A stretch of DNA of 64,000 bases from Streptomyces sp. NBC_00457 (GTDB lineage: Bacteria; Actinomycetota; Actinomycetes; Streptomycetales; Streptomycetaceae): NCBI RefSeq assembly GCF_036014015.1, contig NZ_CP107905.1:9486001-9550000 (forward strand), written 5' to 3'. The position numbers and the translations under genes were made by a program. The notes under the pieces were generated by a model that was given only the letters and a program-made list of their open reading frames with translations, did not search any database and was not told the DNA's origin. Below are positions 23,122-26,100 of this stretch, piece by piece; the stretch's first letter is position 1, and the number at the start of each line of letters is the position of its first letter.

Positions 23122-26100
23122 GTGTCCGGTTTCGAAGAACGTGTGTCCGGTACCGACGACGAGACAGCCGCCGCATTCTGGCAGCGGCAACTCGATCCCC
23201 TCCCGCTGGAGACCCCCCTCCCCGCCGATTTTCCTTACCCCGCCCGGCCCGACGCCGAACGCCGAACCCTGAGCCGCCCGCTGGACGTCACGGCCGACGC
23301 CCCGACACTCCTGGCCGCCTATGTCGCCCTGCTGCACCGCTACGGAGGCGGGCACGACATCACCCTCGGCCATGAGGGCCTGCCCCTCCGGATCGCCCTG
23401 GACGGTGGCACGCCCTTCGCGGAGCTCGTACGCCGCGTGAGCGAGGCGACCGAGCAGGCCCGGACCCACCGGATCGAACTCACCACGCTGATCGACGGGT
23501 TGCGACCGGAGCCCACCCGGGGCGGCGGACTGTTCTTCAACACGGCGTACGGCGGCATGCGCGACGGCTGCCTCGACGTGGCGCTCGACGTCCGAGCGGG
23601 CGACGTCCTGGTGACGTACCGGCCGGATCTCTTCGAGGCAGCGACCGCCCGGCGCATGGCGGATCACTACGCCACCCTGCTCTCCGACGGCCTCGCCCGG
23701 CCGCACGTCCCCGTCGGCGAACTGGCGCTGCTCGGCGCCGAGGAGACCCACCGCGTCCTGCGGGAGTGGAACGACACCGACCACGACGTCCCGCTGCGCA
23801 CCTGGCCTCAGATGTTCGCCGAGCAGGTCCGCGTCCGCCCGGACGACATCGCGCTGGTCTTCGAGGACACCGCCCTCACCTACGCCGAACTCGACGAGCG
23901 CGCGGCCCGGTTGGCCCACGCCCTGATCGCTCGCGGCGCCGGACCCGAGCGCGTGGTGGCCCTCGCTGTGCCGCGTTCCGCCGAACTCGTCGTCGCCGAA
24001 GTCGCCGTCCTGAAGTCCGGTGCCGCCTATCTGCCCGTGGACACCGACTACCCGGCCGACCGCATCGCCTACATGCTGACCGACGCCACCCCGGTCTGCC
24101 TGGTCACCACGGCCGAGGTCGCGGCGGACATCCCGCCCTGCGACGGCATGGACGTCGTGGTCCTCGACGCCCCGGAAACCGTTCGGGAGTTGGCCGAGCA
24201 CTCGGCGCAGGGACCGGACCTCAGCACACTGTCCGTCACCAACTCCGCCTACGTGATCTACACCTCCGGCTCCACCGGCCGCCCCAAGGGCGTGGTGCTC
24301 ACCCATGCGGGCGTCGCCAAGCTGGTCGCGACGCAGACCGAGCGGTTCGGGATCGGTCCGCACAGCCGGGTGCTGCAGTTCGCCTCGCCCAGCTTCGACG
24401 TGGCGTTCTGGGACCTGTGCCTCGGCCTGCTGTCCGGCGGCCGGCTCGTCGTCGTACCGAGCGAGCTGCGGGTGCCAGGCACGCCGCTCGCCGACTACGC
24501 CCACGCACACGGCATCACCTTCATGATCCTCCCGCCGGCGCTGCTCGCCGCCATGCCCGAGGACGTCGAACTGCCGCCCGCCACCCTGCTCGCGGGTACC
24601 GAACGGGTCTCGCCGGAGCTGGTGGGCCGCTATGCCCGCGGCCGGATGATGTTCAACGCGTACGGCCCCACCGAGGCGACCACCAACTCCACCCTCGGCC
24701 TGTGCGACCCCGACATCCCGGCCGGCTCCATCGTGCCCATCGGCATCCCCGACCCGGGCACCCGGGCCTACGTCCTCGACGCCCGCCTGAAGCCCGCCCC
24801 GCCCGGCGTCCCCGGCGAGCTGTACCTGGGCGGCGCCGGGCTCGCCCGCGGCTACCTCGGCCGGCCCGACCTGACGGCGGAACGCTTCGTCGCCGACCCG
24901 TTCGGGGCGCCCGGCGAACGCCTCTACCGCACCGGCGACCTGGTGCGCTGGAAGGCCGACGGACGCCTGGAGTTCCTCGGCCGCGCCGACTCCCAGGTGA
25001 AGATCCGCGGCTTCCGCATCGAACCCGGCGAGATCGAGTCCGTCCTGCGCGCCCATCCGACTGTGGACCAGGCCGCAGTCGTGGTCCGCGAGGACCGCCC
25101 CGGCGACCGGCGGCTCGCCGCGTACGTCGTCCCAGCACTGGACGGCGCCACGGCCCCCGACACGACCGAGCAGGTACGGGAGTGGAAGGACCTCCACGAA
25201 CTCCTGTACGCGGCGGCCGGATCCGAGGGCGACCGCGAGCATGGAATCCGCGAGAACTTCGCGGGCTGGAACAGCATGTACGACGGACTGCCCATCCCCG
25301 TCGAGGAGATGCGCGAGTGGCGCGCGGCGACCGTCGCCCGCATCGAGGAGCTAGGTGGCGAAGTCGGCTACGGTTCGACAGCGCCCCAAAGGGGCGCGGG
25401 GAACTGCGCGACCAGCCACAATGGCGCCGCGGTCGGACGACGGCCCATCACGGCAGATCCAGCGGCGCGCTCGGCGCCCCGCCGGGTCCTCGAGATCGGC
25501 GTCGGCAGTGGCCTGATCCTCAGCCGTATCGCGCCGGGCTGTGCGGAGTACTGGGGCACCGACCTCTCCGAAGAGGCCGTACGTGCCCTGCGGACCCAGG
25601 TCGAGGCCGTACCGGAGCTCGCCGACCGGGTCCGCCTGAGCGCGCGGCCCGCCCATGACGTCAGCGGACTGCCCGAGGGCCATTTCGACACCGTCGTCCT
25701 CAACTCCGTCGCCCAGTACTTCCCGAGCGCCGACTACCTCACGGATGTCATCCGCGCCGTCGACACGCTGCTCGCACCCGGCGGCACCCTGTTCGTCGGC
25801 GACGTGCGCAACGCCCGCCTGCTGCGCTGCCTGCGCACGGCCGTCGAGACCCGGCGCGCGGACGACCCCGAGGACAAGCAGGCCCTGCGGGCGGCCGTGG
25901 AGCGGTCGATCAGCTGGGAGGGCGAACTCCTCCTGGACCCCGACTACTTCGCCGCCCTCGACGGCTTCGACGCCGAGATCCAGGTCAAGCGGGGCGCCCA
26001 CCACAACGAGCTGACGCGGTACCGGTACGACGTGGTGCTGCGCCGACGGGCCCAGGCCCCGGTGCGGGCCGACCTCGACGAGATCCCGTGGAGCGGGCAG

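Follow-up and report, generated by a model that had tools for sequence, protein, structure and literature searches.

The 64-kb window analysed here, which corresponds to positions 9486001-9550000 of a 10.8-Mb Streptomyces chromosome, contains a long NRPS gene (Table 1). In the alignment with its homologue P0002, the start of the latter falls at the equivalent of NRPS residue 46. Pfam assigns three AMP-binding, two condensation and two PP-binding stretches to the first half of the protein and four of each to the second half, together with one methyltransferase stretch in either half. Both methyltransferase domains are embedded, and module 1 consists of an adenylation domain with an N-methyltransferase inside it. 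In the translation, residue 782 is followed by a segment of 40 residues, after which the chain continues with APRR towards the SAM-binding motif of methyltransferase 1. Four residues separate the end of the segment from this motif, and the Pfam methyltransferase match begins at residue 828. The first-pass annotation had placed a block of about 115 bases or 38 residues in the first methyltransferase domain; the place is correct, and the block measures 120 bp and 40 residues. Its further observations, that the block adds residues in frame just before the SAM-binding motif and that the second methyltransferase domain lacks it, are borne out: the frame is intact, and 15 residues lie between the flanking motifs of the second domain compared with 55 in the first.

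Table 1. Features of the NRPS gene, of copies of the repeat in the window and of further genes with an in-frame copy.
Feature	Position	Strand	Basis
NRPS open reading frame, 7385 residues	23008..45165	+	ORF list, Pfam, P0002 alignment
Captured repeat, 120 bp, residues 783-822	25353..25472	+	Own-genome search, homologue gap, DNA empty site, consensus score, copy alignment
Perfect hairpin GCGCCCC-AAA-GGGGCGC of the captured element	25381..25397	+	Sequence; fold predictions
Conserved core GCGGGGAACTGCGCGACCAGCC	25396..25417	+	Core scan
SAM-binding motif VLEIGVGSG of methyltransferase 1, intact, residue 827	25486..25512	+	Translation, motif
SAM-binding motif of methyltransferase 2 (10 residues, residue 3370); 14 preceding residues without insert	33115..33144	+	Translation
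Intergenic copy, short form	52046..52171 (about)	+	Between ORF 50888-52033 (-) and ORF starting at 52187 (+, codon-usage gene call)
Intergenic copy, longer (mid) form, second hairpin	54226..54323	+	Sequence; 37.9 bits to mid form
Stop codon of ORF 54320-55273 (-), within the right end of the element (CTCAG)	54320..54322	-	Direct reading
Acyl-CoA dehydrogenase, antisense copy	L125:1509-2819		
T4-type baseplate protein, sense copy in frame	L154:2178-3002		
FAD monooxygenase, antisense longer-form copy in frame inside the FAD-binding domain	L142:3380-4957		

The block is missing from nearly all relatives. Among 120 listed NRPS homologues, 114 were measurable between the flanking motifs (six were not); 113 of these have 15-26 residues there, and the sole other carrier, with 55, is P0002 from Streptomyces sp. 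NBC_00445. A blastp listing comprises 41 proteins, and apart from this NRPS and P0002 every one of them (39) has 40 gap positions. At the DNA level, all 58 homologous loci that a script could place, out of 60, lack the block, as do the remaining two (L040 and L058) on inspection; some of the 60 loci are the same species sampled twice, and 57 entered alignment A1. The limits of the block were set by alignment with the empty sites of the relatives G032 and G073 (loci L226 and L227), in which GAGCT or GACCT runs straight into CGCGCC where 120 extra bases are found here; L014 is split differently in this junction alignment. PDB entry 5wmm, which we take to be the interrupted adenylation-methylation domain of TioS, has three residues where this NRPS has 43. 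The alignment of homologues proposed as a check in the first-pass annotation thus finds the block absent from 113 of 114 proteins and all 58 loci, which supports the view that the repeat entered the NRPS gene in one lineage.

The block belongs to a repeat family with many copies in this genome. Searching the own genome with a 141-base stretch gave 40 scored places out of 528 first-look candidates, the weakest with an E value of 3e-18, and the best other copy (1751191-1751314) is 92% identical across 124 bases. With up to two mismatches, the core pattern GCGGGGAACTGCGCGACNAGCC has 323 matches in this genome and its reversed control has none. Against the family consensus, the NRPS insert reaches 68 bits and the best of 20 shuffles 0.9 bits. 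As the sequence is GC-rich, the similarity could in principle be one of chance among GC-rich sequences, but the control counts and the shuffles rule this out and the probability of such a coincidence is negligible. The genome-wide search therefore bears out the earlier claim of a repeat, and of the two outcomes named beforehand as counting against capture, a segment carried by all orthologues and a chance GC-rich likeness, neither was found. The same element had been reported at 52056-52166 and 54230-54310; the first of these copies is indeed of the same short form, whereas the second is a related longer form and not identical.

Family matches are present in 137 of 199 sampled Streptomyces genomes and the other 62 are without a match. 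Core matches per genome range from 0 to 748 across the 199 genomes, where counts of one or two may be chance as the reversed control also reaches two. In a phylum sample of 296 genomes, those outside Streptomyces have 0 to 2 core matches each. Judged from these counts, the family looks restricted to the genus Streptomyces, in a draw of 296 genomes that may hold few other genera of the same taxonomic family. Copy number differs hugely among Streptomyces genomes (G059, G128, G109 and G103 are examples), and this spread suggests bursts in some lineages. The repeat also occurs in five Streptomyces plasmid records.

Aligned copies define a unit of about 130 bp that runs from CTAAGCGG to CGCTTAG. 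It has a hairpin at its centre, contains the conserved core and is bounded by short inverted ends. The consensus ends are CTAAG and CTTAG, and full-length copies have short and imperfect terminal inverted repeats (CTNAGCG/CGCTNAG), as MITEs do. The element also resembles a MITE in being short and present in high copy number without a transposase gene, and each of its six consensus frames codes for at most about 43 residues. Shortening at the left is common: 14 of 110 matches start in the first consensus bin and 70 at positions 25-44, and 33 reach the last two bins at the right, with ends taken from local alignments that may have trimmed them. The captured NRPS copy likewise has a shorter left end than the full element. 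In the longer (mid) form, exemplified by the copy at 54230-54310, GGGGAACTGCG is swapped for GGGGCTGTGACATATGCGGCTCCGCCGCGGGGCG, and there is a second hairpin. A third form is larger still; it is seen in L251, L252 and L265, where a further palindrome (GGGGGTCCCCCCGCTCGAGCGA...TTCGAGAGTGGGGGAGCG) is perhaps another repeat nested inside.

Comparison of 16 full-length copies gave no consistent target-site duplication beyond the inverted ends themselves. The search for a partner transposase covered the Y1 family (PF01797), with two members in the genome of 143 and 146 codons, presumably too short for RAYTs. No element is found in the 4-kb stretch around either gene, so that these genes are not flanked by repeats in the manner of RAYT genes, and a Y1 transposase was rejected as the mover. 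With neither a target-site duplication nor a linked transposase, the case for mobility rests on the empty sites; a transposase would presumably have driven it.

The position of the repeat relative to genes was analysed for 119 matches, a non-random set drawn from the window and 38 regions chosen by likeness to the NRPS copy and 62 regions from the first exact core matches, with gene calls from a codon-usage script and not a standard gene finder. Intergenic matches number 68, another 43 extend across a gene 3' end and eight lie within a gene, two of them at the very C-terminus and six in frame inside the gene. This agrees with the earlier statement that the repeat is mostly kept outside genes and can nevertheless be read as protein. 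The 66 intergenic matches with both neighbours divide into 38 tandem, 22 convergent and six divergent arrangements. In the range examined, the TTA of the right end of the element coincides exactly with 13 of 74 gene ends on the opposite strand, and the TAA of its left end with six of 63 on the same strand.

This distribution around gene 3' ends, together with the strong hairpin, is what would be expected if the repeats were mainly functional RNA or DNA elements such as 3' hairpins or terminators, with the copies in genes being accidents of their spread. Folded as single-stranded DNA, the consensus has a z score of -2.03, the NRPS copy -1.72 and the copy at 52048 -0.07, and compensatory changes are seen at none of 29 predicted pairs across ten copies, so structure is weak evidence here. 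Rfam has no match within 25000-26000 at E values up to 1, and the wide range of copy numbers, with genomes entirely lacking the repeat, argues against a general role. We regard a mainly functional element as a tentative option, somewhat doubtful and compatible with capture. In a second species (G109, 452 core matches), none of the 108 copies in 60 examined regions lies within a gene and one overlaps one, so capture is rare and lineage-dependent and not general.

Five further genes of this genome contain an in-frame copy, encoding an acyl-CoA dehydrogenase, a baseplate protein, a GH95 protein, an ABC transporter and an FAD monooxygenase. The NRPS capture described in the first-pass annotation is thus confirmed as an event but not as a singular one. 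The NRPS, dehydrogenase, baseplate and GH95 copies come from the likeness set and the ABC transporter copy from the core-match set, and the FAD monooxygenase copy was by-catch beside a likeness-set copy. The comparison with empty sites in relatives covered the NRPS, dehydrogenase and baseplate genes. Four of 120 homologues of the baseplate protein also carry the element, and others have unrelated expansions at the same place, many of them Gly/Ser-rich and up to about 170 residues longer. The best PDB alignment of the acyl-CoA dehydrogenase breaks off at the insert and picks up weakly afterwards. In the GH95 protein the catalytic match starts right after the insert and residues 153-296 are unaligned, which is weak support. 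The ABC transporter has a short copy in the linker between its membrane and ATPase parts.

The four sense captures use one common reading frame (recognizable by a 13-residue peptide). Among 100 copies outside genes, 85 are free of stops in this frame over the aligned part; the other two sense frames are open in 73 and 64. On the antisense strand, the frame in which the dehydrogenase copy is read is likewise the one most often open (86 of these 100 copies). The element also lies between domains in other species, namely in an NRPS of Streptomyces bicolor (L072) and a PKS of S. coacervatus (L076); three of 49 named loci were flagged as lying inside genes, L074 by the flag alone. At the protein level, the peptide RGELRDQP, which corresponds to another frame of the core, occurs near residues 5900-6000 of the NRPS homologues P0091, P0100, P0101 and P0103.

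In the acyl-CoA dehydrogenases, the loop that follows ARSAAYYAAW is a hotspot, where homologues (P0242-P0361) are empty or carry the element in sense, in antisense, in its longer form or partly deleted. Among 120 homologues, 48 have the element in sense at this one loop (27 in the short and 21 in the longer form), four have it in antisense and six contain apparent partly deleted remnants, while 53 have a plain short loop, six another long loop and three were unparsed. Thirty dehydrogenase loci were fetched and 29 of them read as DNA: the bit score is 73.6 for the antisense copy of this genome and 18.5 to 37.2 for four sense loci, shuffles giving 0; L285, whose peptide marks it as a remnant, has no score, and the same holds for the other 23. 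In a quick tree from which the loop was left out, the four antisense proteins form one clade (support 99) within the insert-free part, and all sense proteins lie across a branch of support 92. The simplest reading of this tree is that the element entered the same loop twice independently, with inversion as an alternative. Within the sense group, the short and longer forms would interchange about ten times, a number that may be inflated by weak branches (of 113 branches, 21 are starred and 46 open).

The middle of the dehydrogenase insert reads VDMRLRRVGATSH in some proteins and YQYAAPPRGATSH in others, so conservation does not extend to the peptide sequence, and a conserved peptide function was rejected. 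This bears on the possibility that the inserted NRPS peptide has acquired a role, such as that of a linker altering domain movement. Such a role would fit the presence of the NRPS insert in two strains and the persistence of the element at one dehydrogenase loop in dozens of homologues, but the variable peptide, the changes of form and the many homologues with a plain short loop make it improbable.

The consequences for methyltransferase 1 were assessed with a single AlphaFold model of the domain alone, a kind of check proposed in the first-pass annotation. The mean pLDDT is 87, residues 48-82 of the domain fall below 50, and the blocks of the insert score 39, 37 and 42 where core blocks mostly score 93-98. 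The insert is thus predicted as a disordered loop next to a confident methyltransferase core. It occupies the connection from helix 27-44 to strand 88-92, before strand 1, and the SAM-binding loop comes after strand 1. The best fold match and the best sequence match are both PDB entry 5wmm, which has the same interrupted adenylation-methylation design as module 1 and is without the 40-residue insert; together with the Pfam assignment, these matches identify an interrupted A-MT domain of the NRPS type.

Between the two carriers, 121 of 7340 positions differ over the whole protein. Differences are above this mean in the insert itself (two of 40) and in residues 700-782 directly upstream (seven of 83), and three are found in the 278 residues downstream. 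An insert that damages methyltransferase 1, leaving residue 1 unmethylated and the product changed, would be in keeping with the length of the segment, its end four residues before the SAM motif and the differences just upstream. We consider this unlikely, although less so than a use for the peptide, given the intact SAM motif, the confident model core, the few changes downstream and a position on the connection into strand 1, outside the motif loop. The suggested effect on N-methylation of residue 1 accordingly finds no support in the predicted loop position, the modelled core or the downstream conservation. The insert is probably a floppy loop that is tolerated, and methyltransferase 1 most likely still works.

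Our preferred reading, to which we give a probability of roughly 0.85, is that the NRPS block is an inserted Streptomyces repeat that kept the frame and forms a tolerated disordered loop in a methyltransferase that is most likely working. A palindromic, MITE-like or REP-like repeat of about 130 bp would have inserted into the methyltransferase 1 region in a recent ancestor shared by this strain and NBC_00445. Its survival would be owed to the preserved frame, to the absence of stop codons in the frame used and to its landing in a permissive surface connection between a helix and strand 1, where the inserted segment would form a disordered loop of 40 residues. On a wider view, about as likely as not, this repeat family would again and again furnish disordered spacers, in frame, to permissive loops in enzymes and megasynthases; it would have entered the dehydrogenase loop independently in both orientations, switched there between short and long forms with the frame kept, and entered NRPS and PKS linkers.

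In-frame capture of repeats is already established in Rickettsia, enterobacteria, Neisseria and REP-bearing species, according to the relevant sections of PMC10969869, PMC2229807 and PMC3733652. Rickettsia palindromic elements (RPEs) are described there as about 100-150 bp long and as lying between genes and in frame in unrelated protein genes (PMC10969869, PMC2229807), with nearly half of those first reported being in genes (PMC10969869). The Streptomyces element is likewise palindromic, of similar length and found between genes as well as within unrelated protein genes whose frame it keeps, six of them in this genome; it differs in belonging to another phylum and in the share within genes (six of 119 matches), and the likeness is one of description. 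REP elements of the GTAG/CGTC type are, in the sections of PMC3733652 that treat them, palindromes of 20-40 bp, tagged at one end by GTAG or CGTC, which lie mostly downstream of genes, provide stop codons through their ends and are in some cases found inside open reading frames; in two Xanthomonas, recB was struck by a REP at about one site (PMC3733652). The coincidence of element ends with stop codons and the copies in genes are shared features, whereas the length of about 130 bp and the ends CTAAG and CTTAG of the Streptomyces element do not match those of RAYT-type REPs, and "Streptomyces" is absent from the main text of PMC3733652. The MITEs ERIC and 107-bp Correia are presented in PMC2229807 as repeats of small size whose terminal inverted repeats are short and which form in-frame fusions, features that are all found here too; the element stands apart from them in that its 16 compared copies show no target-site duplication and in that a parent insertion sequence was not identified.

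No description of this Streptomyces repeat family was found among the best-ranked literature matches, in a search that had most subscription journals outside its reach. Text searches with the core DNA or the insert peptide returned no matching paper, and 12-base string matches were to unrelated papers. Here in-frame capture of a repeat is seen in Streptomyces, and it reaches biosynthetic enzymes that are of wide interest. A single tree of the dehydrogenases shows loops that are empty, filled in sense or antisense, long, short or partly deleted, and this series makes it testable whether such inserts are neutral or alter an enzyme; captured repeats also mark natural permissive insertion points in megasynthases.
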